This document shows positions 38,746-63,825 of a DNA stretch of 64,000 nt, piece after piece. The stretch spans positions 6,985-70,984 of the forward strand of contig NZ_JNYE01000023.1 in NCBI RefSeq assembly GCF_000717185.1, written 5' to 3'. The position numbers and the translations under genes were made by a program. How positions within the stretch are numbered: the first letter of the stretch is position 1; every line of letters begins with the position of its first letter. Origin of the DNA: Kitasatospora phosalacinea (lineage in GTDB: Bacteria; Actinomycetota; Actinomycetes; Streptomycetales; Streptomycetaceae). Below the pieces are notes generated by a model. It was given only the letters and a program-made list of their open reading frames with translations. It was not told where the DNA came from and searched no databases.

Positions 38746-39225
38746 CTACCGGCGGTTCGTCGCCCCCAGCACGGGGGCAGCGGGCACCGGCGGGGCGGGC
38801 CGGTCGGCCGCCAGGCCCAGCGGCCGGGAGGGCGCGGTGCGGGCGGTGGCGGCCCGGACCCGCTCGGCGGCCAGGTCGTCGGCGGCGAGTGTGTGCCTGC
38901 GGGCGGTGGCGAGGGTGCGGATCGCTTTCAGGGCGGTGCTGGCCTCGGCGTAGGCGGTTCGCAGGGAGCCCGCGGTGTCCGTGATGCGGTCGAGTTCGTA
39001 GAAGGCGGGCACACGGCCGGGCCGGGTGAGTGCGTGCAGGCGGCTCTGGAGCACGACGGCGGAGTTGTCGAGCACCGTAAGGTGCTCCCGGGTGCGCATC
39101 GCGGCACGGAGCAGGGGGTCTTCCACGGGCTCGCGCGCTGCGGCTTGCTCCAGTTCGGTGATCGGTTGGCCCCAGGCTTTCTCGATCATCGCGTCGGCGT
39201 GGTCGAGGGCGGTCGCGTCGGACAC
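38746..39225 (-). CDS. Helical protein with the shared C-terminal tail
   Basis: A 159-residue protein starting at GTG, five bases after GGAGG. A long helical body (ELEQAAAREPVEDPLLRAAM; TAYAEASTALKAIRTLATAR) leads to a tail beginning RAATARTAPSRP and ending VLGATNRR. The tail follows the pattern found in at least 18 proteins of this region. Function is unknown. Confidence 0.62.
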   Translation of the reverse strand: MSDATALDHADAMIEKAWGQPITELEQAAAREPVEDPLLRAAMRTREHLTVLDNSAVVLQSRLHALTRPGRVPAFYELDRITDTAGSLRTAYAEASTALKAIRTLATARRHTLAADDLAAERVRAATARTAPSRPLGLAADRPAPPVPAAPVLGATNRR

Positions 39226-39247
39226 GGTGTCCTCCAAGGAGGGGTGG

Positions 39248-39478
39248 TCAGCGGGGGCGGGCGGCGGCCTGCTGCTGGGCGTAGAGCTGGACGGCGTGGT
39301 CGAGGGTGGTGGCACCCAGCTTCCGGCGGGCGCGCTCAGCGCGGCGGCGTACGGTCGCGGCGCGGGTGCCCAGCCGCAGGGCGAGGCCGGCGACGGTGTA
39401 GCCCTGCGTGAGGTAGCGCAGGAGGGTGGTCTCGCCGGGGCTGAGGGGCTGGCCGCGCAAGGGCTCGGGGTTGCTCAA
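39248..39478 (-). CDS. Stand-alone LuxR/GerE-type helix-turn-helix
   Basis: A 76-residue protein with LSPGETTLLRYLTQGYTVAG followed by LALRLGTRAATVRRRAERAR, a full LuxR-type DNA-binding domain without any receiver domain. The TTG start overlaps the stop of the DUF317 gene upstream (TTGA). It is a likely regulator within the element. Confidence 0.7.
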   Translation of the reverse strand: MSNPEPLRGQPLSPGETTLLRYLTQGYTVAGLALRLGTRAATVRRRAERARRKLGATTLDHAVQLYAQQQAAARPR

Positions 39479-40320
39479 GACAGGCTCCTTCGGGGAGTCG
39501 GGGCGGCGCTCGCCCCGAAGGGGGCGGGCGCCGGGGCCGGTGGTGTCCGGCAGGAGGAAGGCGTGGAGGGCGAGCGGGAGGTGGCCGCGCTGATGCGCGC
39601 GACCTCCCGCGGGCTGGGCACGATCGGCGTTGCGGTGGCGGCGGCGGGCAGGCGTTCCAGGTCGATGCGCCGCATGGGCCGCCGGACCGGGACAGGGTCG
39701 GTGACGGCGGCGGTGAGCGACTGCAGCAGGTGGTCGGGCAGGTGGGAGGAAGCGGTGGCGCACCAGCAGGATCGCCTCGTGCCGACCTCGACCAGCAGGC
39801 GTTGGGTGTGGCCGGCCATCTCGTCGGAGTGCCGCAGCAGCCTGTCCTGGAAGTGGAACCGGACGAGGCGGTCGGGCGACCGGTAGCTCAGGAACGGCGT
39901 CGAGGGGTCCAACGTCCAGCCCTGGGAGAGGAGTTCGAGGGCTGTCTCGGCCCCGTTGCTTCGGCTGCCGCCCAGGTAGGCGTCGGGGCCCTGGTCGTAG
40001 GCGTCGGCGAGCGCGGTGGTGAAGTCGGCGACGACCTCGGGCGGGGTGCTGTGGTCGAAGGTGACCAGCCACTCGGGCGGCGCGAACGCGTCCGGCCCGG
40101 CGCTGATCTTCCACCACATCGGGCCGTCGGCCCAGGGCAGGTACGCAAGGCGGGCGGTGAGGTCCGGCGCGGTGACGAAGAAGTTCTGGTCGGCGTCGTG
40201 GCTCCGGGCCCAGCCGACGTCCAGCAGCGCCTGAACGGCTTGGGACTCGTCCGCATCGCCGTTGGCCAGGTAGCGGGGCGCGATTCGGTACTCGCGGGGT
40301 TCTTCACGGGGGTTGGGCAC
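39475..40320 (-). CDS. DUF317 protein with shared C-terminal tail (copy A)
   Basis: A 281-residue protein. It begins EYRIAPRYLANGDADES and carries two DUF317-like units, the second at SQGWTLDPSTPFLSYRSPDR. The tail starts REVARISAATSRSPSTP and ends APTPRRSLS. GTG 40320 has AAGGA six bases upstream. It is a paralogue of the next two genes upstream; DUF317 has no known biochemical role. Confidence 0.75.
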   Translation of the reverse strand: MPNPREEPREYRIAPRYLANGDADESQAVQALLDVGWARSHDADQNFFVTAPDLTARLAYLPWADGPMWWKISAGPDAFAPPEWLVTFDHSTPPEVVADFTTALADAYDQGPDAYLGGSRSNGAETALELLSQGWTLDPSTPFLSYRSPDRLVRFHFQDRLLRHSDEMAGHTQRLLVEVGTRRSCWCATASSHLPDHLLQSLTAAVTDPVPVRRPMRRIDLERLPAAATATPIVPSPREVARISAATSRSPSTPSSCRTPPAPAPAPFGASAAPTPRRSLS

Positions 40321-40339
40321 GGCAGGTCCTTGCAGCAGG

Positions 40340-41173
40340 TCAGCGGGTGCGGTCGGAGGGTGCGGGCTTCGGGGAGGCCGTCGCCCGGGGAGCGGTGGTG
40401 CCAGGAGGTGCGGAGCCGCCCGTCCTCGGCGCGGTGGCGGTGCGGGCGGTTACCGCCTTCATCCGGGCGGCCTCCCGCGTGCTCGGCGCCGCCAGGGTCG
40501 TGACCGCCTGGGCCGGAAGCCGCGCGAGTTCGGAGGGCCGCAGGCGACGCTGCACGGGTGCTGGGCTGGTGACCGCGGCGGTGAGCGTCTCCAGGAACCA
40601 GGCGGGGGTCGCCGAGCAAGCGGTGGCGTACCAGCAGCGCCCGGGCAGGCCGACCACGAACGTGAACCGCTCCAGCTGCCGGTCCGCCTCCTCGCCGTGC
40701 CCCAGGCGTCCGATCTGCTGCTGCAGCGTGACGAGCCCGTCGGGCGAGCGGTAGACGTTCTCCCACCGCGTGGTCTCCAGACGCCAGCCGTTTGCGAGGA
40801 GGCGCTCGGCGGGGTCGAAGCCATCGGCGGGGCCGTGCATCACCGAACTGGGCGCTGCGGCGAGGGCGGTGGTCAGCTCGGTGACGATCTCGGGGGCGGC
40901 GGCGAGTTCGAGGGTCACCTCCCAGGCGGGCGGCGCGAAGACGTCACGATGGGCGGTGAGCATCCACAGGCCGCAGTAGTCCCCTTCGGGCAGGTAGCCG
41001 AGACGGGCGGTGAAGTCGGGGGAGACGGCGAAGAAGTTCCCCGACTCCTCGCGGCTCAGGTACCAGCCGGCGTCCGACAACGGCCGGACGGCCGCGGAGG
41101 CGTCCGCGTCGGCATTCGCCAGGTAGCGGGGCGCGACCTGGTACTCACGGTGCTCTTCACGGGAGTTGGGCAC
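40340..41173 (-). CDS. DUF317 protein with shared C-terminal tail (copy B)
   Basis: A 277-residue paralogue of copies A and C: EYQVAPRYLANADADAS at the N-terminus, SPDFTARLGYLPEGDYCGLW and a second unit at LANGWRLETTRWENVYRSPD. The tail begins REAARMKAVTARTATAP and ends KPAPSDRTR. Sequence between copies differs enough to suggest old duplication rather than recent. Confidence 0.75.
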   Translation of the reverse strand: MPNSREEHREYQVAPRYLANADADASAAVRPLSDAGWYLSREESGNFFAVSPDFTARLGYLPEGDYCGLWMLTAHRDVFAPPAWEVTLELAAAPEIVTELTTALAAAPSSVMHGPADGFDPAERLLANGWRLETTRWENVYRSPDGLVTLQQQIGRLGHGEEADRQLERFTFVVGLPGRCWYATACSATPAWFLETLTAAVTSPAPVQRRLRPSELARLPAQAVTTLAAPSTREAARMKAVTARTATAPRTGGSAPPGTTAPRATASPKPAPSDRTR

Positions 41174-41192: not shown

Positions 41193-42059
41193 TCAGCGGG
41201 CGCGGCCGGAGGGCGCGGGCTTCGGGAGCGCGACCGGCCGGGTCGCGGTGGTGTAGGCGAGCACGGAGCCGCCCGCTCGCGGCGCGGGTGCGGTGCGCGG
41301 GACGGAGAGGGAGCGGGAGGTTGCCGCCTTCATCCGGGCGACCTCCAGCGGGCTTGGTGCCACCGGGGTTGCGGTGGCCTGGGCCGGGAGCCTGGCGAGT
41401 TCGGAGCGCCGCAGGTAGCGCTGGACAGGGGCGGGGTTGGTGATCGAGGTGGTGAGGGTGTCCAGGAACCGGTCGGGGAAGTCCGAGGTGGCGGTGGCGT
41501 ACCACTGGTGTCCCGGAGGGCCGACCACGAACGTCCAGCGCTCCCGGTCGCCGGTCATCTCGTCGTTGTGCCCCAGGTGTCCGAGGCGCCGGTGCAGCGT
41601 GATGAGCCTGTCAGGTGACTGGAAGGCAGCCAGCGGGGGTTTGGCTTTCTGCTGCCAGCCGTGCTCGTCGAGGAGGCGGCCGGTGAGGCCGAAGCCGCCG
41701 GTGGGGCCGTGGACCACGGATGCGGGCGAGGCGGAGTGGGCGGCGGCGAGGGCGGTGGTCAGCTCGGCGACGATCTCGGGAGGGGCGGCGAGGTCGACGA
41801 GCATCTGCCAGGTGGCCGGGGCGAAGACGTCGTCGTGGGCAGCGATCATCCACAGGTCGCCGCGGTTGCCCTCGGGCAGGTAGCCGACGCGGACGGTGAA
41901 GTCGGGGGCGGTGACGTAGGTGTTGCCCAGCTCGTCGTGGCTCAGGGTCCAGCCCGCATCCAGCAGGGGGACCAGCGCGGCGTCGCCGGTGTAGGTGGGG
42001 TTGGCGAGGAAGCGGGGAGCGACCAGGTAGTCGCGCCCGTGGTCGGTGGGGTTCGGCAT
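41193..42059 (-). CDS. DUF317 protein with shared C-terminal tail (copy C)
   Basis: A 288-residue paralogue: DYLVAPRFLANPTYTGDA, APDFTVRVGYLPEGNRGDLW and a C-terminal unit with WTFVVGPPGHQWYATATSDF. The tail begins LEVARMKAATSRSLSVP and ends KPAPSGRAR, nearly the same last residues as copy B. Nothing suggests an enzyme active site. Confidence 0.75.
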   Translation of the reverse strand: MPNPTDHGRDYLVAPRFLANPTYTGDAALVPLLDAGWTLSHDELGNTYVTAPDFTVRVGYLPEGNRGDLWMIAAHDDVFAPATWQMLVDLAAPPEIVAELTTALAAAHSASPASVVHGPTGGFGLTGRLLDEHGWQQKAKPPLAAFQSPDRLITLHRRLGHLGHNDEMTGDRERWTFVVGPPGHQWYATATSDFPDRFLDTLTTSITNPAPVQRYLRRSELARLPAQATATPVAPSPLEVARMKAATSRSLSVPRTAPAPRAGGSVLAYTTATRPVALPKPAPSGRAR

Positions 42060-42074: not shown

Positions 42075-42851
42075 TTAGCGGCGCCGCGGGGCGGGCGCGG
42101 GCCGGGACGGCGGAAGAAGGCGGGGCCGACCCGCCTCCGTGGGAACGGGCGGGCTGGTCGAGCGGACGGACGGTCGTCGCAGCACCGTCACCCGGGCCAG
42201 GTGGCGGGCCGGGATCCCGTCGGCGCGCCGGAGGGCGGGCCCCGGGTCGCTGAAGGCCGCAGCCGCCTGGGTGAGCGGGTGGAACGGCACGCCGATCGTG
42301 AACTCTGCACACCAGGAGGGCTGTTGCGGGCTCCCGGCGAGCATGCTCCACGTCGGCGGGACCAGGCGGGCGACCTCGTCGTCGTACGGCTGGTGGCCCA
42401 GGCGGTGCCGGTAGAGGGCCCAGCCGTCCGGGGCGAGCTGGTCGTGGAAGCCCCGGGGAGAGCGGTCGCAGGGGCGCCAGCCGCGGTCGGCCAGGACCGA
42501 GGCTGGAGTGCCGACCCGGTGGAGGTAGTACTGGGTGTGCAGGTCCTCGGCGAGCGTGGTGGTGAAGGCGGCGACGACCTCGGCGGGTGTACCGGAGCTG
42601 AAGGAGGCCCGCCACAGGGGTTCGACGCCGAGCTGGTGGCGGCCGTGGACGGTCCAGGCGGCGGGGGAGCCGACGCCGCCGTCCACGGTGAGTACCGCTG
42701 TTCGGCACGGGCTGGTGAAGCGGGTTCCATCCGCGGGAGCAGGAGCGGGGGTCCAGCCGTGGACCGCGGTCAGCGGGCTGGTGACCAGTCGGCGGTCGCC
42801 GGGCCCGGCCAGGCGCAGCGGCTGGACGAGAACAGGGGCGGTGGAGGGCAC
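42075..42851 (-). CDS. Divergent DUF317 protein with Pro/Arg tail (copy D)
   Basis: A 258-residue protein, more distant than copies A-C but with the same plan: SPLTAVHGWTPAPAPADG, WRASFSSGTPAEVVAAFTTT and PSWCAEFTIGVPFHPLTQAA. The tail (RPSVRSTSPPVP to APAPRRR) fits the common pattern loosely. GTG start, GAGGA seven bases upstream. Confidence 0.68.
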   Translation of the reverse strand: MPSTAPVLVQPLRLAGPGDRRLVTSPLTAVHGWTPAPAPADGTRFTSPCRTAVLTVDGGVGSPAAWTVHGRHQLGVEPLWRASFSSGTPAEVVAAFTTTLAEDLHTQYYLHRVGTPASVLADRGWRPCDRSPRGFHDQLAPDGWALYRHRLGHQPYDDEVARLVPPTWSMLAGSPQQPSWCAEFTIGVPFHPLTQAAAAFSDPGPALRRADGIPARHLARVTVLRRPSVRSTSPPVPTEAGRPRLLPPSRPAPAPRRR

Positions 42852-42969: not shown

Positions 42970-43779
42970 TCACCTCCCGCGGGCCGGGTGGGAAGCGGCA
43001 GTGACGGCGTACGGCACCTGGGGCTGGGGCTGCGGGGCGTGGCTGAACAGCGAGGGCGGCACCGGGCTTCGGCGCAGCGCCGCCGCGGTGCGCGCGCCCT
43101 GCACTCCTTCGGCCGGGGCGGTGAGGGAGCGGACCTTGGCGGCCGGAGCGTGGGCGGGGCCGTTGGCGGTGTGCCGGTCGTGCCACTGCTGGAGGGCGGC
43201 GTAGACCGGTCCGAGGGCCTGGCCCGCTTCGGTCAGGGCGTACGGGCCGTGGTGTCGGCTGCCGGTCGAGACCACCAGGCCGTCGGCCTGGAGCCGGGCG
43301 AGGCGGGGCGTGATCAGCTGCCGGTAGACGCCGGACTCCGCGGCGATCCGGCTGAAGTGCATGCTGCCGCCCTCGGCCAGCAGTTGGACGATCCGGGTGG
43401 TCTCCAGCGGCTGCAGGCGCTGCAGCGCGTCCTCGATGCGGCCGGGCCGCCCCAGCATGGTCGGGGAGATGTGCTCCGACGACCACTGGGCCAGGGACCG
43501 GTAGACGGGGCCGAGGGTGAGCGCCTGCTCGCTCAGGCGGTACGGGGCGCGCTTGTCGAAGGCGTCGTCGCGGACCACCAGGCCGTCCTGGCGCATGGCG
43601 GACAGCCGCTTGCTGGCGTAGGACTCGCTGAGCGCCGGGACGTAGTCGGCGACCTCGCGCACCTGCAGCGTCGGGCCGTACCTGGCGATGGCGCGGACGA
43701 TGTCGGTGGTCCAGTTCGGCGCGAGCCGGCGCAGGGCGGCTTCGACGGCCTGCGGGTCGGCGGGGGGAGTGATGGGCAT
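42970..43779 (-). CDS. Tandem HxlR-type winged-helix regulator with shared tail
   Basis: A 269-residue protein with two HxlR-like domains in tandem: residues about 20-110 (NWTTDIVRAIARYGPTLQVR ... LSAMRQDGLVV) and 115-205 (LETTRIVQLLAEGGSMHFSR ... LARLQADGLVVSTGSRHHGP). HxlR proteins normally carry one domain and dimerise, so this is a fused dimer. The tail starts TAAALRRSPVPP and ends SHPARGR. It may regulate the element. Confidence 0.78.
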   Translation of the reverse strand: MPITPPADPQAVEAALRRLAPNWTTDIVRAIARYGPTLQVREVADYVPALSESYASKRLSAMRQDGLVVRDDAFDKRAPYRLSEQALTLGPVYRSLAQWSSEHISPTMLGRPGRIEDALQRLQPLETTRIVQLLAEGGSMHFSRIAAESGVYRQLITPRLARLQADGLVVSTGSRHHGPYALTEAGQALGPVYAALQQWHDRHTANGPAHAPAAKVRSLTAPAEGVQGARTAAALRRSPVPPSLFSHAPQPQPQVPYAVTAASHPARGR

Positions 43780-43949: not shown

Positions 43950-44609
43950 TTACTGGGTCGTCTCCAGGCGGGAGAGGAGGGAGCGGACCAGGGTGGGGAG
44001 GCTGCCGGGGCCCTCGCCGATCCGGACCTCGCTGGCGGCTTCCTCGACGATGTACTGCGCGTCCTCGATCAGGCCGCTGCTGATCTCCATGCAGGCGTCG
44101 GTGATCGCGGCGGCGGCCCGCAGCGCGCCGACGAGGACGTCGACGTAGGCGTCGGGCTCCATCCCGGCTGCGTCGGCGGCGGTGCGGATCGCGGCCGTCT
44201 CCGCGTCGTTGAAGCAGTGGTCGAAGCCCTCCTCTTCGGCGGGGGCGGGCACGGGGTGCTCCCCGGGCTCCAGCGCGGGGAGCCCGGCGCGGGTGCAGAT
44301 CGCGTCGACCGACGTGGTCAGCTCGGTCAGCGACTCGGTCAGCCAGCCCAGCGCGGAGGCGTAGGAGGCCAGGGCGAACAGGCCCACGGGGGTGGTCGGC
44401 AGCGGCTCGTCGAGCAGGTCCTCCAGGCGTTCGTTCAGCTCGCCGACCACGCGGGGTCCGGCGGACAGCGGCCCGAGGAGCGGGGTGAGGTAGGAGCGGC
44501 TGGCCGGGGTGTCGTACTCGGCGACCAGGATTCCGGCGATCGCCTGGGCGGCGTCGGTGAGCCAGCCGGCGAGGTCGCAGCGGCTGGGCAGGGCATCGGT
44601 GGTCATCAT
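43950..44609 (-). CDS. Hypothetical helical protein
   Basis: A 219-residue acidic helical protein (AALGWLTESLTELTTSVDAI; VLVGALRAAAAITDACMEIS) without membrane segments. It overlaps the RelE-like gene upstream (ATGA), so it could be its antitoxin or immunity partner, though it is longer than typical antitoxins and follows rather than precedes it. It lacks the shared tail. Confidence 0.58.
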   Translation of the reverse strand: MMTTDALPSRCDLAGWLTDAAQAIAGILVAEYDTPASRSYLTPLLGPLSAGPRVVGELNERLEDLLDEPLPTTPVGLFALASYASALGWLTESLTELTTSVDAICTRAGLPALEPGEHPVPAPAEEEGFDHCFNDAETAAIRTAADAAGMEPDAYVDVLVGALRAAAAITDACMEISSGLIEDAQYIVEEAASEVRIGEGPGSLPTLVRSLLSRLETTQ

Positions 44610-45127
44610 CGGGCCTTTCGGGGAGCGTCAGTGGCGGAGAAGCCGGGCGAGGCGGAGGTGTAGGCGATGCCGCCCTGGCGGCGGGCGTGCGCGGTGCGGG
44701 GGGAGCGGGCGCGGGCGGCTTGGACGCGGGCTTCCTGGGCTTCCCGGACGCGGGCTGCCAGCTCCGGGTCCGCGTCGGGTGCAGGGGTGTTGAGCCCGGT
44801 GCGGCCCAGCCGCTTCTGGGCGGCGTTGTAGACCGCGTACTCGTGCCGGGCCCCGGCGGCGACGAGGTAGACCTCGCGGGAGTGCTTGGAGGCGGGCGGT
44901 GCGTCGCGGAACTGCACCACCAGGCGGTGGCTGGCCCAGTCGCCGCCCGCCCCGAGGACGATCTTGTGGCAGCCCTCCAGCCGCTCGCTGAGCCGGGTGG
45001 CGACCCGCTCGCCGTGGACCAGGTCCTGCAGGTGCAGCAGGGCCTGGTCCCGGATGGGCTCGGGCAGTCGGCGCAGGTCGGCGATGGCGTCGGGGTGTGC
45101 GGCGAAGGCGAACTTGGCGCGGCTCAC
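44606..45127 (-). CDS. RelE/ParE-like protein with shared C-terminal tail
   Basis: A 173-residue protein. Residues 1-105 follow the RelE/ParE fold: FAAHPDAIADLRRLPEPIRD, GCHKIVLGAGGDWASHRLVV and YLVAAGARHEYAVYNAA. The remaining 65 residues are an appended tail (VQAARARSPRTA ... DAPRKAR). RelE toxins cut mRNA at the ribosome; the basic residues needed for this cannot be verified. It overlaps genes on both sides. Confidence 0.65.
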   Translation of the reverse strand: MSRAKFAFAAHPDAIADLRRLPEPIRDQALLHLQDLVHGERVATRLSERLEGCHKIVLGAGGDWASHRLVVQFRDAPPASKHSREVYLVAAGARHEYAVYNAAQKRLGRTGLNTPAPDADPELAARVREAQEARVQAARARSPRTAHARRQGGIAYTSASPGFSATDAPRKAR

Positions 45128-45867
45128 AGCGACCTCCCGGAGGACTGCGGGGAGTTGACGGGAACAGCGGGCGTGCTCGGAGCAGCGCCGGCCTGGGGGA
45201 GCGAGGTGGTGGTGCGGGAGAGTGCGGCGCCGGTCCGCAGAGCCTCCGCGTCCAGGCGGTACTCGGGCGCCTCGGGCAGGGGGGTGGAGCGGTCCTCCAA
45301 CCAGGCGTCGACGGCGGTCCAGTCAGCGAACGCCCCCTCGCGCACCGTGTAGGTGTACTGGTCCGGCTGGAGCGACTCGAGGAACAGCCGGACGGGCAGC
45401 TCCTTGTCCTGGCGGTCGACGGCGATGCTCCAGCCCTCGACGTCGCCTCCGTCGATGACCCGGCGCTCGACGACGGCAAGCCGCTCGCCGGAGTGCCGGA
45501 TGCGGTCCTCGACCCGGACGGTCAGCTCGTCGGCGGGCTTGGGGACGTCGGCGATCGGCGCGAGCGCCTCCGCCGGGCAGCCGCGGTTGATCAGCCACCT
45601 CTGGGCGAACGCGAAGGTGGCGTGCCCGGAGCCGTGCAGGCTGAACGTCCCCTGCCCGCTGTCGCGCACGACGTCGAAGGAGAAGAGGTTGGGCGTGTCG
45701 GGGGCATCCCAGGTGGCCGAGGGGTCGAAGGCGACGATGAAGCTGCGCTCGCCCACGTCGTGCTGGGAGATCGTCTGGTACCTGCAGATCCAGGTGCGGT
45801 CGTAGCCGGTGGCGCTCTGCTCGTCGGCAGCGACCAGGCCGTCGAGCCGGAAGTCGGTGTCCTTCAC
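45124..45867 (-). CDS. Hypothetical protein with shared C-terminal tail
   Basis: A 247-residue beta-rich protein (TWICRYQTISQHDVGERSFI; GTFSLHGSGHATFAFAQRWL) whose fold I do not recognise. The tail starts RTGAALSRTTTSLP and ends SSGRSL. GTG start and stop overlap neighbours (GTGA, and the ATG of the RelE-like gene), so it is part of the coupled run DUF4913, this gene, RelE-like, helical protein. Confidence 0.62.
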   Translation of the reverse strand: MKDTDFRLDGLVAADEQSATGYDRTWICRYQTISQHDVGERSFIVAFDPSATWDAPDTPNLFSFDVVRDSGQGTFSLHGSGHATFAFAQRWLINRGCPAEALAPIADVPKPADELTVRVEDRIRHSGERLAVVERRVIDGGDVEGWSIAVDRQDKELPVRLFLESLQPDQYTYTVREGAFADWTAVDAWLEDRSTPLPEAPEYRLDAEALRTGAALSRTTTSLPQAGAAPSTPAVPVNSPQSSGRSL

Positions 45868-46445
45868 GCCGCGGCTCCCAGCTGGTCGGGCGTGGCCAGC
45901 ACGCGGTGGCTGGGCCGGGACGGACTGGTGGTGCACGCGGCGAACGGCCCGTCGGGAGAGCGGAGTTGGGCCAGGGCGTGGTCGAGGTGGTCGCGGTGCC
46001 ACGTCGAGGGCCCGATGAGGCCGGCCTCCGCGTCGGTGAGCTGCTGCCAGGCCAGCCAGAGCCCGTGGAGGCGGGCGACGGCCTCCGGGTGCTCGTACCA
46101 GCGCGCGCACCAGGGCCGGGTGGAGCCGATCTCGCGCCCGTAGACGGGCAGCAGCACGTGGGTGATCCAGTTGCCCAGGGCGGCCAGTTCGGCGGCGTAC
46201 TCCGCGCCGCCCATGGCCAGGATGAACACCGAGGTCGGGCCGTCGGCCTCAGCCTCGTCGGTGGATTCGGCCTCCGGTTCCTCGGCGCCGCCCGGGTCGG
46301 GGTCGCCGCCGAGGCGGTCGAGCAGGACGCCGTGCTGGCGGACCTCGGCGATGGTGCGCGCCAGCGTGCTGGCGAGGTCGTCGAGGTCCTCGTCGGCGAT
46401 ACGGATCGGTTCGGGCCCGGGGGAGCCCGCGGACGGGTCGGACAT
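45864..46445 (-). CDS. DUF4913 protein
   Basis: A 193-residue protein. ITHVLLPVYGREIGSTRPWC, ARLHGLWLAWQQLTDAEAGL and LAQLRSPDGPFAAC are the conserved stretches of DUF4913, a family on actinobacterial conjugative plasmids near type IV secretion genes. An acidic N-terminus of about 70 residues precedes the domain. It supports a conjugative-element origin for the block. ATG 46445 lies 96 bases after an intergenic repeat. Confidence 0.82.
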   Translation of the reverse strand: MSDPSAGSPGPEPIRIADEDLDDLASTLARTIAEVRQHGVLLDRLGGDPDPGGAEEPEAESTDEAEADGPTSVFILAMGGAEYAAELAALGNWITHVLLPVYGREIGSTRPWCARWYEHPEAVARLHGLWLAWQQLTDAEAGLIGPSTWHRDHLDHALAQLRSPDGPFAACTTSPSRPSHRVLATPDQLGAAA

Positions 46446-46540: not shown

Positions 46541-46587
46541 GGATCCGCGGATCCGGCGGCTTGGTCGGGCCGCGGGTCCGTGCTAGA
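46541..46587 (-). repeat. Intergenic repeat, copy 1 (GGATCC/CCGGCC type)
   Basis: Contains the 14-bp palindrome GGATCCGCGGATCC, then TTGGTCGGGCCG and GCTAGAGG. Copies occur at 48589, 58479 and 61998, each 50-100 bases upstream of a minus-strand start. Confidence 0.55.
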
Positions 46588-56060: not shown

Positions 56061-56465
56061 TCAGCGGGTTCGGCCGTTGGGGCGGGGTGCGGTCGGCGGG
56101 ATGGGGGCGGGTGCCGGACTGGGAGCGGTCCTGGCAGAGGGGGAGGTGAGGCGGGCTGCGGTGGTGCGCTGCCGGTCGGCTACGTCGGTGTTGTTGCCGA
56201 CGTAGCCGACAACCAGGTCGGGCTCGATGGCGACCCGGTATCCGGCGGCGTCGAGCAGACCGGCCGCGCCGGACGCGGCGAGCCGCTGGTCAGGGTCGGA
56301 CTGTTCCGGCGGGAGGTGGTAGGAGGCAGGGTCGGTCGGGGCGGTGAAGCCGAACCGGCGCAGGATCCGGTCGATGAGCCCAGGGGTGGGGGTGCGGCAG
56401 TCGGCCCGGACGAGCCCGTTGCTGCTGCGGTAGATCTCGACGTCAGTGCCGTAGGTATCGGCCAA
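56061..56465 (-). CDS. Small protein with the 55-residue repeat domain and shared tail
   Basis: A 134-residue protein with TTG start. ILRRFGFTAPTDPASYHLPP and LLDAAGYRVAIEPDLV match the unrecognised domain found in four more genes (57185, 59658, 60392, 60878). The tail (AARLTSPSARTAP) ends PNGRTR. It precedes the coupling protein in transcription order. Confidence 0.6.
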   Translation of the reverse strand: MADTYGTDVEIYRSSNGLVRADCRTPTPGLIDRILRRFGFTAPTDPASYHLPPEQSDPDQRLAASGAAGLLDAAGYRVAIEPDLVVGYVGNNTDVADRQRTTAARLTSPSARTAPSPAPAPIPPTAPRPNGRTR

Positions 56466-56500: not shown

Positions 56501-57160
56501 TCAGCGGCGGTGGCTGGCGGCCGGGGTTGCGCCAGGCGGTCCGGCCGGGGGCGCTCCGGGGTCGGCTCCGGGGCTCGCGGTACGGCGGGCGGCGGCGCGG
56601 GGCGAGGGGGAGACGGCGGCCTGCTGCCGCATTGTCTCGGCGTCACAGGGGCCGTGGCCCATGACGTCGTGCAGCAGTTCCCGGGTCCGCTTGACCTGGA
56701 CCATGTCGTGGTGGCGGGGGTCGCTGGTTTCGGCCGGCATCTCGGCGATGTCGCCGACGACGGCCTCCAGCTCCTCTTGGGCGTAGACCAGCATCGAGTG
56801 CACGGAGGCTAGGCGCGTCCACAGGTCGAAGGCCGCCACGTAGGGGTCCGGATAGTCGAAGTCGAGCCGGGCTCGGGCCCAGTCGGCGCTGGCGGCTACC
56901 AGCTCGGTCAGCTGCGGCAGCGGGCCGACCAGGGCACCGGTCGTCTCCTCGACGATCGCGGCGACCTCGCCCGGGTCCGCTGTCACCTCCAGTCGTGCGA
57001 TCATGCCGGGCAGCGAGTACGGGTCGGCCGCGGGGGGTGGGAAGTATCGGACCTGCAGGGGCGGTTCGGCCTGCGGGCCGTGGGCGAGGGCGATGTTGTG
57101 GCGCATCGCGGCACCGACCGCCTCGCCGATCGACGAGTAGTGCTCAGGCACCGCACCCAC
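56501..57160 (-). CDS. Helical protein with shared C-terminal tail
   Basis: A 219-residue protein, mostly helical (FDLWTRLASVHSMLVYAQEE; VVGDIAEMPAETSDPRHHDM). The tail begins QQAAVSPSPRAA and ends PAASHRR. It resembles the helical proteins at 49739-51712 in layout. No family is recognised. Confidence 0.6.
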   Translation of the reverse strand: MGAVPEHYSSIGEAVGAAMRHNIALAHGPQAEPPLQVRYFPPPAADPYSLPGMIARLEVTADPGEVAAIVEETTGALVGPLPQLTELVAASADWARARLDFDYPDPYVAAFDLWTRLASVHSMLVYAQEELEAVVGDIAEMPAETSDPRHHDMVQVKRTRELLHDVMGHGPCDAETMRQQAAVSPSPRAAARRTASPGADPGAPPAGPPGATPAASHRR

Positions 57161-57184: not shown

Positions 57185-58429
57185 TCACCGGGTGCGTCCC
57201 GTCTGCCGGGGCACGACCGCCTGCGGGGGTACGGCAGAAAGCGGCGCGGAGGCGGCCGTCCCTCGGGCGGTGACGGCGGGGGAGGCGGCGCGGGCGGCGT
57301 CGGCGGTGGCAGAACGGGTATCGAAAGCTTCGCGGGACTGGGCGTACTGGATTTCGTCGACCAGCCCGGCCAGCTCGCTCTGGGCGGTGGAGACGAAGTC
57401 GGCTGCGACCCCGAGACGGTCGGAGAGGGCGTACTGCTCGGGGTCGAGGTCGGTGGCCTGCTCGGAGGCGGCCTCCAACATGTCGTGGACGCGGTCCAGG
57501 ATCCCGCTGTCGGGGTCGAGGACCTGGTCGAGCGCCTCGGCGAGTTCGCCGAAGCTGGCGGCGCCGCGGATCTGGTCGGTGACCTGGAGGAGCTGCTCGT
57601 CGGCGGAGAGCTGGTGCCGGTCGGCGGGCCTGCCGGGAAGCGCGGTGTCGAGCCGGGGGTCGAGGTCGACGTCGTAGCGGGCGGCGCGCAGCATCTCGGC
57701 GGCGTGGGTGGCGACGGCGGCGCGGTCGGCCGGGGCGGTGGTGGTGGGCAGCCGGTAGCGGCGGCCGTACCAGTCGCCCTTCTCGGCGAAGCCGGCGTGC
57801 TTGAGCAGGGCGGCTGCGAGGTCGTCGCTGGCGCCCTTGGCGACGACGGCGCCGCTGGGTTCGAGGCCGATGGCGATCGGTGGGGTAGGCATGCGGTAGT
57901 CCTTGGCGGTGGTGACGGAGGGGGCGGTGCGCGCCAGGTGGCCGAGGTCGGCGGCGATGCGGTGGCACTCGGCCTGGGCGTGGAAGGCGTCCCGGTAGGT
58001 GCTGTGGGTGGAGCCGTCCTCGCGGACGACGGTGGCGACGATGTGCACCGAGCGGTCGAGGTTGCGGATCGCCGCCCACCGGCAGCCGTCCGGGTCGCCC
58101 GCGGGGGCGATCCCGGTGACGGCGACCAGGCGCCGGGCGACGTCCGCCCACTGGGTGTCGGTCAGATCGGGGTGGCGTGGGTCGGACCTGACCGAGCACA
58201 GCCACACCGGCCGCGCGGGGGCCCGGGCGCCGATCCTGGCGGCCGGGGCGTCCAGCACGCCGCTGCCCAGGACCTCCCGCGGGTCGCCGAACAGCGGTAG
58301 CTGCTGGTGGGAGTTGCGGTAGTCTGCCCCGATCAGCCGGGGCCGCAGCCGAAACCGCGGAGCGTCGTGCCCGTACAGGACGGGGATCAGTGCGGCCGTG
58401 TTGGTGGCGCGCTGCAGGTGGGCGATCAC
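57185..58429 (-). CDS. Relaxase-like protein without catalytic histidines, with repeat domain and shared tail
   Basis: A 414-residue protein. Residues about 60-170 match the relaxase at 25285 (VWLCSVRSDPRHPDLTDTQW; PDGCRWAAIRNLDRSVHIVA), but the H-x3-H-x-H site is N-x3-S-x-H, so nicking is unlikely. Next comes the 55-residue repeat domain (LLKHAGFAEKGDWYGRRYRL ... YDVDLDPRLD), a helical region and the tail (ARAASPAVTARG to RQTGRTR). GTG 58429 follows AGAGGGG. Confidence 0.72.
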   Translation of the reverse strand: MIAHLQRATNTAALIPVLYGHDAPRFRLRPRLIGADYRNSHQQLPLFGDPREVLGSGVLDAPAARIGARAPARPVWLCSVRSDPRHPDLTDTQWADVARRLVAVTGIAPAGDPDGCRWAAIRNLDRSVHIVATVVREDGSTHSTYRDAFHAQAECHRIAADLGHLARTAPSVTTAKDYRMPTPPIAIGLEPSGAVVAKGASDDLAAALLKHAGFAEKGDWYGRRYRLPTTTAPADRAAVATHAAEMLRAARYDVDLDPRLDTALPGRPADRHQLSADEQLLQVTDQIRGAASFGELAEALDQVLDPDSGILDRVHDMLEAASEQATDLDPEQYALSDRLGVAADFVSTAQSELAGLVDEIQYAQSREAFDTRSATADAARAASPAVTARGTAASAPLSAVPPQAVVPRQTGRTR

Positions 58430-59128: not shown

Positions 59129-59626
59129 TCAGACGAAGGGGTTCTCGGTGGGGCGGTCGGCGACGGTGGCGGCCTCCAGCAGCTCTTGGAGGTCGCCGGG
59201 CTCGGAGGAGCGCTGGTCGATCCACCAGCCGGCGCGGGTCACGGTGCGGGCCTGCTCCTCGACCCGCTCCCAGTCGGCCTCGGCCATATCGCCCTCCAGG
59301 ACGAGGGCGGTGTAGGCGGCGGCGAGCAGCTGGTGGCGACAGCGCACGCCCCAGGCGGTGCCCCGCTCGGTGCCCTCCAGCGGCGGCATCCGGTACCGCT
59401 CGGACCAGGCGTCGGACTCCGCCTGCTCCTCGGCGCGCTTGGCCGCCAGCCACGCGGCCTTGTCGGCCTCGTCGCCCTCCTTCGCCGCGCGCCAGCACTC
59501 GGTGCACTCCTGCCGGGCCAGCCAGTCGGCGTACCCGGCGCGCCGGTCGGCCGGGCGGTCGCCGAGGTTGCGCTCGCTCTCGTGCCCGCACGAGTGGGTG
59601 ATCGTCCAGACCTTCTTCACGGCCAT
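59129..59626 (-). CDS. Hypothetical protein with N-terminal zinc-like motif
   Basis: A 165-residue protein. The N-terminus TITHSCGHESE and RQECTECWRAA supply C-x-H and C-x2-C, which may bind zinc, followed by a highly charged helix (DKAAWLAAKRAEEQAESDAW). AAGGAG is well placed before ATG. No shared tail; function unknown. Confidence 0.62.
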   Translation of the reverse strand: MAVKKVWTITHSCGHESERNLGDRPADRRAGYADWLARQECTECWRAAKEGDEADKAAWLAAKRAEEQAESDAWSERYRMPPLEGTERGTAWGVRCRHQLLAAAYTALVLEGDMAEADWERVEEQARTVTRAGWWIDQRSSEPGDLQELLEAATVADRPTENPFV

Positions 59627-59657: not shown

Positions 59658-60359
59658 TCAGCGGCTGCGGACGCCGGAGGGCACCGCGGGCGGCAGCGGG
59701 GCGGACACACCGGTCTTCGCCTCGGCGGCCGACGGGGCGGTCGTTGCCGGGGCACCAGGGGACACCTCAACCCGCTTGCGGGTGCCGGTGCCGGTGCCGG
59801 GCGGGCGGATGGCCGCGGCGAGGGCGTAGTCGACGGCGACGGTGTACCGGCCTTGTCGCAGCGGCTCGGTGAGCGCGGCGATGGCGTCGATGCCGGCCTC
59901 GTGCTGGCGGGTGGGGGCGAGGTAGATGTCGAGGGCTGGCACGTGGTGCCAGCCGGCCCGGGTGAGGAACGGCGCGGGGGTGATCGGCAGGCCGTCGCTG
60001 ACGGCGGCGACGATTCCCAGGTCGGGGTGCTTGCCGAACGCGACGTCCGGCTCGTCGGGGCTGGGCCGCCAGGTGGTGCCGGGCACGTCGAACGCGGGCT
60101 CGGTGCCGACGCGGTGGCCCATCGTGCGCAGCGCCCGCACCGCCGCACGGGCGCGCTCTTGGCCGTTGTGCTCGGGGTCGGTGAGGGTGAAGAAGCCGGA
60201 GCGGGCCGGGTCGGGCTCGAAGCCGAGCGCGGGCAGGATCGCGTCGGCGACCGGCTGCGGAAGCAGGCCGGAGGCGGCATAGACGTCGGGGCGCTGGTGG
60301 TTGCGCCAGATCAGGAGGGCGGGGGCTTGCTCGTCGGTGGTGGTGGCCGGTGTGGACAC
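59658..60359 (-). CDS. Hypothetical protein with repeat domain and Arg-ending tail
   Basis: A 233-residue protein. ILPALGFEPDPARSGFFTLT and AVRALRTMGHRVGTEPAFD represent the 55-residue domain; a related half occurs again near FLTRAGWHHVPALDIYLAPT. The Pro/Ala tail ends AVPSGVRSR. GTG 60359 has GGAG eight bases upstream. Confidence 0.62.
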   Translation of the reverse strand: MSTPATTTDEQAPALLIWRNHQRPDVYAASGLLPQPVADAILPALGFEPDPARSGFFTLTDPEHNGQERARAAVRALRTMGHRVGTEPAFDVPGTTWRPSPDEPDVAFGKHPDLGIVAAVSDGLPITPAPFLTRAGWHHVPALDIYLAPTRQHEAGIDAIAALTEPLRQGRYTVAVDYALAAAIRPPGTGTGTRKRVEVSPGAPATTAPSAAEAKTGVSAPLPPAVPSGVRSR

Positions 60360-60391: not shown

Positions 60392-60856
60392 TCAGCGGGT
60401 GCGGGCGAACGCGGCACGGGGGTCGGCCGCCCCGGGCGGTGGGCTGGGCGGGGCCGCGGCGGTAGCGGGGCCCCGCCGGGCCGCAGGGCTCCTGAGCAGG
60501 GCAGCTTCGTCGGTGCGGAACCCGCGAGCGGTGGTGGCGGCAGGGGTGCGGTGGGCGGCGACCTGCCGGGGGAGTCCGACCTGCGGCTCGGAGTGGGCGT
60601 CCAGGGAGAGGTCGCTGTGGACGGCGTAGCCCGCGCCGTTCAGGACCTTGACCGCCCAGCGCAGGCGGTCCGGGGCGTCGCGGTGCTGCTCGGTGAACGC
60701 GTACAGGTGGGGGTGGTCGGCGATGCGCTGGAACTCCAGCCGCTCCAGCATCCAGGCCGCTGCCGCTGCCGCGGACCGGGTGGGCAGGGCGGCGACGACG
60801 CCGTGGTCGGGGTGGTGGCCGAGGACGACCTCGGGCTGCGGTGCAGGGGTGGGCAT
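60392..60856 (-). CDS. Hypothetical protein with repeat domain and shared tail
   Basis: A 154-residue protein consisting of little more than the 55-residue domain (MLERLEFQRIADHPHLYAFT, AVKVLNGAGYAVHSDLSLD) and the tail (EAALLRSPAARRGP to AAFARTR). It is the simplest example of the domain-plus-tail architecture and a good query for homology searches. Confidence 0.62.
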   Translation of the reverse strand: MPTPAPQPEVVLGHHPDHGVVAALPTRSAAAAAAWMLERLEFQRIADHPHLYAFTEQHRDAPDRLRWAVKVLNGAGYAVHSDLSLDAHSEPQVGLPRQVAAHRTPAATTARGFRTDEAALLRSPAARRGPATAAAPPSPPPGAADPRAAFARTR

Positions 60857-60877: not shown

Positions 60878-61942
60878 TCAGCGGACGCGGCCGGAGGGGC
60901 GGCCGGTGGCCGGGGGCTGGGCGGCGAGCAGGGCTTCGGCGGGGTGCCCGGTGAGGGTGCGTTCGGACGCCGGGGAGGAGGCGAGGGCGGCGGCCACCCG
61001 CAGGTCGTGCCCGCTCGCCGCCGACCGGGCCGCGGCCTGGGGGTGCGCGGCGTGCCGGTCCGCGAGATCCCCCCGCAGAGCCCGGATCTCCCGGACGTAG
61101 CGGTCGGTCAGGTCGGCGACCTCGCGCAGGCGGGCGGCGTAGTGCGGATCGGAGGCGGTCGCGTTCAGCCCCTCCCACCAGGTGACGGTCTGGTGCAGGG
61201 CGTCGACGGCCTGGTCCAGCACGCCGTCGCCGGGGGCGGTGAGCACGCTGAGCGCGGCCACCACGTCCTCGGTGTGGCCGGCCTTCGCGATGTCCTCGCC
61301 GAGGCGGTCGAGCGGGCGGGACGGAAGGGCGGTCCCTGCCGCGGCCCGGTCGGTCAGGTCCGTGGGGCAGTCGACGCCGAAGCCCTCGGCCCGCAGGTAG
61401 TCGGCTGCCCGGGTCACGGCCGTCCGCCGCTCGTCCGGGTCGAGCATCGCGGCCGGGAGCCGGTGGCAGGCGACACCGTTCTGGGAGGTGGGGACGAAGC
61501 CCGCGCGGTGCAGCAGCGACTCGGCCCGCAGGGTCCGGGCCCGGACCTCCTGCTCGGAGGGGACGCCGCGCTGGTCGAGGTGCTCGTTGAGGCAGGCCAG
61601 CAGCGGCTCTGGGTTGGTGCCGTGCTGGTGGTCGAGCTGCCCCGGCTGGCTGTCGTACAGGGGTGCGGGCTCGCCGCCGAGCTCAAGCCACTCCGCGAAC
61701 CAGCCGTTCTGCGGGCCGCTCCATCCGGGCTCCTGGTAGTCGGCGTACTGGGGGCCGGCGAGCAGGAAACTGCCGTCCGGCAGCTGGGCGTCGATGTAGT
61801 CGCCGGTTTCGAAGTCGATGGTGTACTCGACGCCCCGGGCCGCCAGGAGAGTGGTGACCGGTGTGAACTCGTTGTTCGGAGGAGTTCGGCGGGTGTGAGC
61901 AGTGACCCCGAAGCCGGACTTGGAGAACGTGACGGGCTGCAT
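60878..61942 (-). CDS. Hypothetical protein with repeat domain and shared tail
   Basis: A 354-residue protein. An N-terminal region of about 120 residues (VEYTIDFETGDYIDAQLPDG) is followed by the 55-residue domain (LLHRAGFVPTSQNGVACHRL, AADYLRAEGFGVDCPTDL), helices and the tail (VAAALASSPASER to GRPSGRVR). ATG is preceded by TAGGAG. Confidence 0.62.
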   Translation of the reverse strand: MQPVTFSKSGFGVTAHTRRTPPNNEFTPVTTLLAARGVEYTIDFETGDYIDAQLPDGSFLLAGPQYADYQEPGWSGPQNGWFAEWLELGGEPAPLYDSQPGQLDHQHGTNPEPLLACLNEHLDQRGVPSEQEVRARTLRAESLLHRAGFVPTSQNGVACHRLPAAMLDPDERRTAVTRAADYLRAEGFGVDCPTDLTDRAAAGTALPSRPLDRLGEDIAKAGHTEDVVAALSVLTAPGDGVLDQAVDALHQTVTWWEGLNATASDPHYAARLREVADLTDRYVREIRALRGDLADRHAAHPQAAARSAASGHDLRVAAALASSPASERTLTGHPAEALLAAQPPATGRPSGRVR

Positions 61943-61997: not shown

Positions 61998-62046
61998 TCC
62001 GGAGGATCCGCGGCTTGGCCCGGCCGGGGAAGCAGTGGTAGAAGGC
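61998..62046 (-). repeat. Intergenic repeat, copy 4
   Basis: Contains GTCCGGAGGATCCGCGG, TTGGCCCGGCCGGGGAAGC and GGTAGAAGGC, combining features of copies 1 and 2. It lies 56 bases upstream of the 60878-61942 gene start. Confidence 0.55.
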
Positions 62047-62050
62047 CGCC

Positions 62051-62563
62051 TCAGCGGGCGGAGCGGCGGTGAGCGGGCCCGGTCACGGCGGGCGGCGGCG
62101 TCTCGGCGGTGCGCGGGGCGAGCGCCTGCGTTCCGCGGAGGGCCGGGGAAGCGGCAGCGGCCGGCGTCCGTGCAGGGCGGCCGGGGGAGCGGCTGACCGC
62201 GGCGGCCAGCCGCTCGCTCCGTCCGGCCAGTTCACCGGCGAGGCCCTCGTGGACGAGGTGCAGTTCCTCGCCGATCTCGGTGATCCGCTCCGCCAGGGCA
62301 TCCAGCTCGGCCCCGTACCGCCGGACGCCGTGCTCCTGGCACCACTGCGCCGCCGTGCTCACGAGTTCGTGCAGGCGGCTGACCGCGCCGAAGTCGCTGC
62401 TCACGAGTTGGTGAAGCGTTTCCGGGAACTCGCCCGGCCCGGCGGCGGCCAGACGCTGGACGGCGTACTCCTGCCCAGCCCTGTCGGTCGGCGGGAGAGA
62501 TGCGGCCGGTGTGCCGGACCGAGGGAGGAACTCCTCGGGTGCCCGATGACCCGGATCGGTCAT
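62051..62563 (-). CDS. Helical protein with shared C-terminal tail
   Basis: A 170-residue protein. Helices LHELVSTAAQWCQEHGVRRY and LDALAERITEIGEELHLVHE suggest a coiled-coil. The tail begins LAAAVSRSPGRPAR and ends GPAHRRSAR. ATG has AAGGAG eight bases upstream. No family recognised. Confidence 0.62.
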   Translation of the reverse strand: MTDPGHRAPEEFLPRSGTPAASLPPTDRAGQEYAVQRLAAAGPGEFPETLHQLVSSDFGAVSRLHELVSTAAQWCQEHGVRRYGAELDALAERITEIGEELHLVHEGLAGELAGRSERLAAAVSRSPGRPARTPAAAASPALRGTQALAPRTAETPPPAVTGPAHRRSAR

Positions 62564-62589
62564 GAGTGGATCTCCTTGGCGGCGTGCGG

Positions 62590-63825
62590 TCAGCGGGTAC
62601 GGCGCGGGGCAGTGGCGGGAGGCGAGGGTGCTGGTGCCGGCTCGGCAGTGAAGCCGGTCCCGCGGCGCTCGGTGCGGGCCACGGCTGCCTCGACCTGCTT
62701 GTCGCGGCTCGGTACGGGGCGGCCGATCCGTCGGGTGACGTCCTGGGCCAGCACGGCCAGCGACATGCCCGGGACCCACGCCGAGCGCGACCACGCCTCG
62801 CTGTTGCGCTGGTCCTGGGCCCACGAGCGGATCCGAGTGGTGGCCGGGTCGTCGCTGGCCGTGCGGGTCGTGAGGGGGGCCCACCGGGTGCGGACCTCTC
62901 GGATGCCGGCGAGCGCGTCCTCGGCGTGGTGGAGCCGGCGCAGCTGGGGGCCGATGACAGGGTCGAGGCGGTCCTCGGCGGTGGTCACCGTCCGGATCCC
63001 GGCGAGGATGTGGGGGCCTTGGTCCGCCAGGACGTCGAGATGCTGCCAGGCGGCATGGTCGCGGGCCGCCGCGGACTCGAAGACCTCGGGTTCCCCGAAG
63101 CGCTGGGTGTTCGCCGGCAGGACGTACGCGACGCTCAGGTCGTCCAGGGAGACGAGCGCGTCTTCCACGGCGGCGGTTCGCGCGTACCAGGCGGCCCGCT
63201 GGTAGGCGGGAACGAAGCGCTCCGTGACCTCGGCCGCCAACACGGAGGGCTCGGTGTCGGCGGAGAACTCCACCGGGTCCGGCGGCCTCGGCGACCAGAG
63301 ATACCGGTTCTCCGGCGCGTCGTCGGGAAGCATCGAGCGCAGGAAGACCCGCCCGTCGGGGTGCGGCTGGACGACCAGCAGGCGCTCACCGCCGGGACCG
63401 GCGAGGGCGAAGGCGCTGTGCGGCGCGGTGGCGCTGTTCCACAGCGAGGGGTGCCGACCCCACAGCTGGCCCGTCAGGTCGGCGAGGTCCCGCCCCGGGT
63501 TGAGCCGGCAGGGCTGGGCCGACCAGCCGGGCAGGTGCGCGGCCAGCACGGTGGCGAGCGGCGGAAGGGGAGCCGGCGGGCCGGGCTGCTCGGGCAGGAT
63601 GTGGCCGGCCTCGTCGAGGTAGACCTTGGCCTCCCAGTGGTTGGGCAGGGTGCTCCCGCGGTCGCCGGTCGGGCGGAAGACCGCGAAGGAGTCCTGCTGC
63701 GCGCCGCCAGGGACGAGTTCCCAGTGGGGGTGGGTGCGGTCGTTGCCGTCGCGGCGGGTGTCGAGCAGCTGCTCGAAGGCCGCGAAGTCGGCTTCGGTGA
63801 GGTGGGCGTGGTCGAGGAAGGGCAT
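62590..63825 (-). CDS. Hypothetical protein with shared C-terminal tail
   Basis: A 411-residue protein, first of the series in transcription order visible here. The N-terminal half is beta-rich (RLLVVQPHPDGRVFLRSMLP), the C-terminal half helical (DVTRRIGRPVPSRDKQVEAA). The tail starts VEAAVARTERRG and ends TAPRRTR. I do not recognise the fold, and no catalytic motif stands out. Confidence 0.62.
   Translation of the reverse strand: MPFLDHAHLTEADFAAFEQLLDTRRDGNDRTHPHWELVPGGAQQDSFAVFRPTGDRGSTLPNHWEAKVYLDEAGHILPEQPGPPAPLPPLATVLAAHLPGWSAQPCRLNPGRDLADLTGQLWGRHPSLWNSATAPHSAFALAGPGGERLLVVQPHPDGRVFLRSMLPDDAPENRYLWSPRPPDPVEFSADTEPSVLAAEVTERFVPAYQRAAWYARTAAVEDALVSLDDLSVAYVLPANTQRFGEPEVFESAAARDHAAWQHLDVLADQGPHILAGIRTVTTAEDRLDPVIGPQLRRLHHAEDALAGIREVRTRWAPLTTRTASDDPATTRIRSWAQDQRNSEAWSRSAWVPGMSLAVLAQDVTRRIGRPVPSRDKQVEAAVARTERRGTGFTAEPAPAPSPPATAPRRTR

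Follow-up and report, generated by a model that had tools for sequence, protein, structure and literature searches.

Seventeen proteins, and an eighteenth in variant form, end in the same two-part C-terminal tail in a 64,000-nucleotide stretch of the Kitasatospora phosalacinea genome (genome G000, contig C23, positions 6985-70984; this whole stretch is called the window here, and the contig ends at its right edge). Their genes surround the gene for a VirD4/TraG-type coupling protein, in an element where relaxase and coupling protein are linked, as they are in conjugative elements that move single-stranded DNA with a type IV secretion system (T4SS). That such a tail is shared, as a reading of the sequence alone (the sequence-only reading) had noticed, is confirmed. 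Judged from sequence comparison, the tail is probably a signal by which the coupling protein, VirD4, recruits and translocates protein cargo sent with the DNA. Recruitment to the coupling protein is well supported by indirect evidence; the tagged proteins would bind VirD4, and may be delivered into recipients.

The tail was scored with a position-specific scoring matrix (PSSM) of 14 columns, trained on the 12 window tails that strictly match [AVG]A[LTVAS]xR[ST], searched for in a zone about 18-58 residues from the C-terminus, and read at a threshold of at least 8. Genes were called with a simple codon-position model of our own over the listed open reading frames, a heuristic whose starts are approximate. 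Translation of the window shows that all 18 open reading frames named at the outset are real, and all lie on the minus strand. Seventeen of the 70 called window genes reach the threshold, all of them among the 18 and all within 38.7-63.8 kb. The training source of the matrix is the window itself, of course, so that 12 of these 17 are the training set and five (those at 40340, 44606, 51005, 56061 and 60878) are independent. The eighteenth, 57185-58429, scores 3.7, below the threshold, and carries by eye a variant, AARAAS, in register 31 residues before a GRTR end. The count of eighteen tailed proteins therefore holds for seventeen, which no other called gene of the window joins, and for one sub-threshold variant.

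The tail is bipartite. It begins with R-x-x-A-A-x-x-R-[S/T], continues with about 30 variable residues rich in Pro, Ala, Ser and Thr, and closes with an Arg-rich end; the motif reaches further upstream than first described, to an Arg at -3. The distance from motif to C-terminus is 25-44 in the window tails, and across all scoring proteins of 90 loci it is narrow (median 30, 5-95% range 25-35, where about 18-58 was allowed). A logo over the 54 families in which one member or more scores, equally weighted, gives R(-3) 0.71, A 0.95, A 0.93, [LTRA], x, R 0.71 and S/T 0.95, although these are the columns for which the PSSM selects, and some single matches will be due to chance. The last residue, which lies outside the PSSM, is Arg in 0.78 of the same families. 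Sequence identity within 11 families averages 0.36 in the linker, as against 0.56 for the N-terminal domain and 0.81 for five positions of the motif; only members scoring at least 8 were used, which inflates the motif figure but not the linker figure.

The tail is also charged. Its mean net charge is +5.2, and 94% of 319 tags carry at least +3, compared with a mean of +0.6 and 34% for the last 40 residues of other proteins. Two general marks of a C-terminal signal for a T4SS, a C-terminal position and clustered positive charge, are found in it. An artefact of a ribosome-binding site or gene overlap at the gene end was considered as a source of the Arg residues and rejected: CGN makes up 210 of 216 terminal Arg codons, and 66 of 268 same-strand downstream genes lie within 10 bases.

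One family gives a view of how the tail may be built. Here, 15 sequences related to the protein at 44606-45127 were picked by length and diversity, not by tag, and they hold R134, A137, A138, R141, S142, K171 and R173 invariant while the linker is not conserved. In an AlphaFold model, the motif stands at the end of a helix (121-141), with a predicted local distance difference test score (pLDDT) of 75-78 over the block; residues 144-173 fall below 50 and form a predicted disordered tail. The body of the protein, in this predicted structure, folds like a RelE toxin. Foldseek gives seven matches with E<=0.001, and every one is a RelE toxin structure (probability 1.00, best E 5.6e-5). Sequence profiles found no RelE family among the Pfam matches of the 15 members and no RelE chain among PDB sequences. 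The gene that follows, of the 43950 type, is untagged and overlaps the RelE-fold gene in 35 of the 40 cases where the two are adjacent; its product could, from its sequence context, be an antitoxin or immunity protein of the RelE-fold protein.

Those who look for motifs in GC-rich genomes must ask, of course, whether ordinary Pro/Ala/Arg-rich tails, or the descendants of duplicated genes, are being over-read. The linkers are indeed of low complexity, many of the families are small, and Arg-pair ends occur in 105 of the 120 best-listed relatives of a relaxase from an untagged T4SS plasmid. The controls speak differently. In other related elements 168 of 837 proteins score at least 8; in chromosomal control stretches of the same genomes 2 of 416 do, and so do 4 of 517 interior 54-residue segments of element proteins. 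The difference between elements and chromosomal controls gives a Fisher p of 3e-29, which ignores relatedness; loci, relatives and paralogues are not independent, and a few loci were perhaps fetched twice, so that this and the other Fisher p-value given below overstate the evidence. Random Pro/Ala-rich C-termini do not match equally often: where the last 40 residues are rich in Pro, Ala, Ser and Thr, none of 10 control proteins scores, against 136 of 272 in the other elements, which also answers the caveat, raised with the first observation, that such tails are common in high-GC genomes. Composition and chance are accordingly rejected as its source. With invariant anchors set against an unconserved linker, and a narrow spacing in families that were clustered without the tail, over-reading has become very improbable, and on the control counts we regard it as already refuted.

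A genome-wide scan with the tail alignment scored 150 of 361-470 candidates per genome, missed tagged relaxases later found in one genome (G027), and proves no confinement of the tail to the element. Within that scope, the six best matches in genome G041 lie inside its element, the next having E 0.34; in G050 the best match lies near the element; in G042 none of six matches lies in the element, the best, elsewhere, having E 0.01. Three genomes without VirD4 give best E values of 0.05-0.97.

The tail follows one clade of coupling proteins. The 80 named loci are the best 80 of 184 by similarity of the coupling protein, and come from Streptomyces, Kitasatospora, Actinacidiphila and Streptacidiphilus; in them 319 of 1,315 proteins score at least 8, and 75 loci hold at least one such protein. 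When loci are binned by identity of their coupling protein to that of the window (110 of 112 loci, where it was alignable), those at 74% or above have 413 of 1,839 proteins tagged, and 86 of these 91 loci hold one tag or more. Below that value, at 40-74%, 4 of 486 proteins are tagged, in 2 of 19 loci (Fisher p 9e-41, relatedness again ignored). Loci with a coupling protein about 45-50% identical score in 2 of 219 proteins, and five plasmid loci at about 60% in none of 131 called genes, although one of the five, L014, had few genes called. The pNO33-type conjugative plasmids of Streptomyces are alike in having a related coupling protein (57%), an SCO6880-type protein, an NlpC/P60 or C40 peptidase, MobC and a relaxase; they differ in that none of 131 proteins scores, a looser regular expression matching two T4SS proteins of L013.

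Tailed proteins are frequent around these close relatives of the coupling protein (the 413 of 1,839 above) and rare in chromosomal controls (2 of 416). The tail's tie to a VirD4-type system survives in a narrower form. The boundary is sharp, and it encloses a single clade; as a general feature of VirD4 the tag is rejected by the near absence of tags at 40-74% identity.

Which proteins carry the tail, and which do not, is informative. The proteins of the 90 loci were clustered on their sequences without the tail, by single linkage, into 366 families. None of the members is tagged in the families of the coupling protein itself, the VirB4-like ATPase, the SCO6880-type protein, DUF4913, the 43950 type and the 59129 type (the labels VirB4-like and, below, VirB6-like were assigned in this analysis). 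The 50433 type is tagged in 96% of members, the RelE-fold family in 91%, DnaB-N in 89%, HxlR in 83% and DUF317 in 82%; the 62590 type is intermediate, at 60%. A second element in the same genome (contig C31; L042, L008, L041) has a coupling protein 76% identical to the first, and its tailed proteins are for the most part different ones. The tail might be a property of the DUF317 domain itself, a thought that was set aside after a weak test: the tag is absent from five DUF317 proteins encoded where no such element is known, and of those linked to an element only 4 of 13 score.

Relaxases are the archetypal substrates of coupling proteins. Here, six relaxases 45-50% identical to that of the window are instructive: three score at least 8, the best being that of L211 (RTSAALSRS, an RRTR end, score 23.6), and the remaining three, Arg-rich at their ends, carry EAARRRSP or EAARLRSP, which are close variants. 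Among homologues of the relaxase of L212, one of these six (the best-listed 120 of 2,806), 115 have [AVGS]AxxR[ST] near the end, 113 place it 25-35 residues before the C-terminus, and an R-x-R or RR end is found in 99. Among relatives of the untagged T4SS plasmid's relaxase (the best 120 of 1,417), one has the motif at that spacing.

Six loci with such mobilizable-type relaxases were viewed over 20 kb by eye. They look like small mobilizable elements; an integrase- or recombinase-like gene is present in five, and neither a T4SS gene nor a coupling protein was recognised in any. Two contain a second Arg-ended scoring protein (L221:12670-14466, minus strand, score 18.0; L224:12642-14357, minus strand, score 9.3), and in a third one protein scores 10.1 without an Arg-rich end. 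By eye, the second tagged protein of L224 begins like a DnaB N-terminal domain. The same tail therefore stands on a protein that a coupling protein must read, in elements apparently without a T4SS of their own, and this result from beyond the window is the strongest support for the recruitment reading.

A mechanism may be proposed along these lines. The VirD4 of an actinobacterial conjugative T4SS would read a two-part tail, a motif at the end of a helix (as in the one model) and an Arg-rich C-terminus, with about 30 disordered residues between them. Reading it on relaxases would bring the DNA aboard; reading it on up to 17 element proteins, among them RelE-fold, winged-helix, DnaB N-terminal-domain and DUF317 proteins, would send cargo with the DNA or ahead of it, so that the recipient might be prepared, taken over or poisoned. 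Small mobilizable elements that apparently have no T4SS, and that carry the tail on their relaxase, would travel on this machine. We lean, if only a little, towards this picture in full: that a Gram-positive T4SS of the Streptomycetaceae injects up to 17 proteins (RelE-fold toxins, regulators and replication-associated proteins) under one bipartite tag of about 40 residues, which mobilizable elements forge to ride along.

Its main rival is docking without delivery. Here, the tail would keep regulators, the relaxase and replication proteins attached to the donor's coupling protein or relaxosome and so organise transfer, and the proteins would stay behind. Several tagged families do look DNA-related (HxlR, DnaB-N, the relaxase-related proteins), and the relaxase data fit docking equally well. 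Up to 17 proteins per element, one of them a RelE-fold protein whose partner gene overlaps its own and is untagged, nevertheless exceed the known needs of a relaxosome. Docking alone is rather unlikely.

Several observations weigh against recruitment and translocation by VirD4. Five of the 80 named loci hold no tag at all, and a decayed element in G018 has none scoring among 32 proteins, two of which end in variant tails. Families may be tagged only in part (the 45124 type 64%, the 56501 type 54%, the 38746 type 36%, the relaxase-related proteins 33%); 8% of VirB6-like proteins score; and the nine element-linked DUF317 proteins that do not score comprise four more that end in Arg pairs and five short single-domain proteins. 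The relaxase contrast is softer by PSSM than by spacing, with scores of at least 8 in 73 of 120 mobilizable-type and 11 of 120 control relaxases among the best-listed homologues. Of 18 genomes in which the window's VirD4 has no match, 4 hold mobilizable-type relaxases (six in all, five of them scoring at least 8), although such relaxases fit mobile riders, which is not proof. The single-sequence AlphaFold model of VirD4 is useless (pLDDT 34.7).

A further such observation concerns the element's own relaxase. In its family (120 best-listed homologues), the strict motif occurs at the right spacing in none, at another spacing in 7, and a score of at least 8 in 7. A diverged version, A-[AGNDS]-T (R-P-Q-A-G-T), does stand at a gap of exactly 31 in 57 of the 120 and of 30-32 in 68, a count that covers one lineage and takes the occurrence nearest to 31. 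The claim that the tail is a tag for recruitment or translocation is accordingly upheld only in part. In its favor are the clade boundary, the tail on relaxases, and its absence from the coupling protein, the ATPase and the SCO6880-type protein; it is limited by the restriction to one VirD4 clade, by an own relaxase family without the strict motif at the right spacing, and by tagged relaxases in genomes that lack this VirD4.

Also on that side of the balance, DUF6238 and the 59129-type protein (a family present in 55 of 90 loci) follow the tag almost as closely as VirD4. The tail might then be read by one of these, or by a chaperone that went unseen, and serve stability, assembly or proteolysis in a way unrelated to secretion. 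Comparison with 13 untagged T4SS loci (among them L014, with too few gene calls to be counted) showed neither protein there, and both are present in the elements of G042, G034 and G018. Yet the tail stands on relaxases in the six mobilizable-type loci, where neither gene was recognised by eye, and G018 has both genes but no scoring tag. Such a reader is improbable. Sorting of the encapsulin or sortase kind was also considered and is not favored.

Recruitment by a coupling protein through a shared C-terminal module has precedents. The nearest is the BID domain with a positively charged tail, found in the Beps of Bartonella, in VbhT and in TraA relaxases of alpha-proteobacteria. It is described as a bipartite C-terminal T4SS signal common to relaxases and to toxins derived from toxin-antitoxin modules, mostly linked to VirB/VirD4-type systems (PMC6509941; PMC5675462). 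The logic is the same, and the module is another: BID is a folded domain of about 100 residues in alpha-proteobacteria, whereas the tail here has about 40 residues, is mostly disordered (in one model), and has scoring members in 54 actinobacterial families. Tagged proteins scanned against Pfam gave no BID match, and both the length and the single helix followed by disorder in the RelE-fold model differ from BID.

The effectors of the Xanthomonas X-T4SS share a C-terminal module, XVIPCD, needed for interaction with VirD4 and for translocation, and Agrobacterium signals of the VirF type are described as a C-terminus with a consensus Arg motif (PMC10025392). XVIPCD has about 120 residues and a Gln-rich tail; with about 40 residues and an Arg-rich end, the tail described here is not of that kind. 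We know of no A-A-x-x-R-S motif, nor of a fixed spacer of about 30 residues, in the VirF-type signals. For the F plasmid, a "conjutome" has been reported, in which conjugation sends many proteins that are proposed to aid establishment (PMC11288057). Those are chromosomal proteins of E. coli, whose signals differ in character and may be C-terminal or internal; here, a single motif marks proteins that the element itself encodes.

Among Gram-positive systems, the T4SS of the S. suis 89K island is reported to secrete SspA-1; this is one protease, and the section on it mentions no shared tag (PMC12857230). That review, of December 2025, treats effector translocation in Gram-positive bacteria as an open question. 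A survey of integrative and conjugative elements of actinobacteria holds that Actinobacteria need a single FtsK/SpoIIIE-like protein to translocate DNA, and the T4SS-type elements that it considers have MOBF relaxases only (PMC3218068); the relaxase family here matches the MobA/VirD2 Pfam model instead. No description of this tail, or of any C-terminal signal of an actinobacterial T4SS, was found in the literature searched, whose coverage was partial.

If the proposal is true, this would be, as far as we know, the first translocation signal to be defined by sequence for an actinobacterial T4SS. Candidate substrates can be listed at once by reading such a tag in sequence, and the tag could predict which mobilizable elements ride which conjugation machine. 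It would also link the enzymes of DNA transfer with toxin-like cargo, a parallel to the path from relaxase to effector proposed for Bartonella (PMC5675462).

The element can be seen more fully in its relatives, two of which (L009, L010) are on plasmids. On plasmid L009 of S. angustmyceticus the cargo lies beside genes annotated as a C40 peptidase, DUF6112, a type IV secretion system protein, an SCO6880 family protein, DUF6238 and an ATP-binding protein. The same gene set adjoins the cargo on the chromosome of G041, where Pfam finds NlpC/P60, DUF6112 with a weak TrbC/VirB2 match, DUF6238, and an EccE match for the SCO6880-type protein; the ATPase there has only a sub-threshold match, and the VirB6-like protein none. 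No mating-pair formation genes are present in the window, which the end of the contig cuts at its right edge.

The relaxase of the window (25285-27051, plus strand), MobA/VirD2-like by Pfam, has no strict motif, and carries by eye a diverged AGT-type version 30 residues from a PRR end. A small gene (25067-25285, plus strand) overlaps its start, where L009 has an annotated MobC. In 7 of the 8 genomes searched, 19-33 kb separate VirD4 from a relaxase match (G000, G041, G020, G050, G001, G035 and G042, where the match is 54% identical with one internal TGA); in G018, where the element is decayed, the relaxase is unlinked to the coupling protein. A tyrosine integrase is encoded at 27673-28797 in the window, and none was seen at the corresponding place in G041. 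An EF-hand-like protein (31352-31897, minus strand) and a short trypsin-like fragment (33193-33489, plus strand), both named by eye, lie between the relaxase and integrase and the regulators.

The cargo genes themselves, all on the minus strand, are given here with motif, gap and last residues. The first, 38746-39225, encodes a 159-residue protein (RVRAATART, gap 29, TNRR). A DUF317 (SPDY) protein at 39475-40320 (RISAATSRS, gap 31, RSLS) precedes one that clusters with the DUF317 family (40340-41173; RMKAVTART, gap 32, DRTR) and a further DUF317 protein (41193-42059; RMKAATSRS, gap 38, GRAR), for which tblastn against plasmids gave no match. Their family neighbour at 42075-42686 scores 4.3, without the motif, and ends in PRRR. 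The winged-helix (HxlR) regulator is at 42970-43779 (RTAAALRRS, gap 31, ARGR). The untagged candidate antitoxin or immunity gene, 43950-44609, overlaps that of the RelE-fold protein (44606-45127; RVQAARARS, gap 31, RKAR). The tagged protein of 45124-45867 (RTGAALSRT, gap 28, GRSL) starts later than its listed open reading frame, and is overlapped by the gene for an untagged DUF4913 protein (45864-46445). Within the cargo region, two paired genes at 46583-48510, also on the minus strand, encode a HAD-like protein (by eye) and an MFS transporter, their families being found in 13 and 12 loci.

Four tagged proteins follow: 49739-50404 (RRTAALTRS, gap 29, RWRR); 50433-50957, shorter than its listed frame and with an uncertain start (SQQAALTRS, gap 28, GRTR); 51005-51673, with a variant motif (RVGAALSPS, gap 31, RGMP); and 51709-52911, which matches the DnaB N-terminal domain twice and in which no match to a helicase domain was seen (RVSAALSRS, gap 36, RSAQ). 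An untagged PAPS-reductase-like protein (phrog_424; 53141-54013), whose family occurs in 16 loci, adjoins the coupling protein. The latter, untagged and the proposed receptor, is encoded at 54187-55449, with its N-terminal part in a separate reading frame at 55538-55969. It is split also in G041, and is a single gene in L009 and G042; a frameshift, a programmed shift or a sequencing matter are all possible.

Beyond the coupling protein lie tagged proteins at 56061-56465 (variant motif RTTAARLTS, gap 26, GRTR) and 56501-57160 (SPRAAARRT, gap 25, SHRR). The protein of 57185-58429, the variant-tailed eighteenth, had been called a dead relaxase: its relation to the relaxase N-terminus is borne out by sequence, and the change of its catalytic histidines was seen by eye. 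The untagged protein of 59129-59626, the rival candidate for receptor or adaptor, has 165 residues, contains Cys and His, and is common in tag elements. A TY-Chap3 match in 59658-60359 is below the Pfam cut-off (cf. PMC9503650). Four tagged proteins close the series: 60392-60856 (TDEAALLRS, gap 31, ARTR), 60878-61942 (variant RVAAALASS, gap 31, GRVR), 62051-62575, whose start codon is uncertain (RLAAAVSRS, gap 44, RSAR), and 62590-63825 (QVEAAVART, gap 26, RRTR).

Among the tagged proteins, Pfam finds DUF317/SPDY, HxlR and the DnaB N-terminal domain twice. These names, and RelE-like by its predicted fold, were correct in the sequence-only reading where checked. The remaining tagged proteins scanned gave no Pfam match at E<=0.01, nor did a subset scanned in PHROGs, NCBIfam and PADLOC; ten proteins matched no PADLOC defence family, and Rfam had no match in the window. 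Far from the cargo, a large open reading frame (210-3359, minus strand) and an upstream 52-residue gene ending DDGCGSTCGACTTGLH look, by eye, like a LanM-type lanthipeptide synthetase and its precursor.

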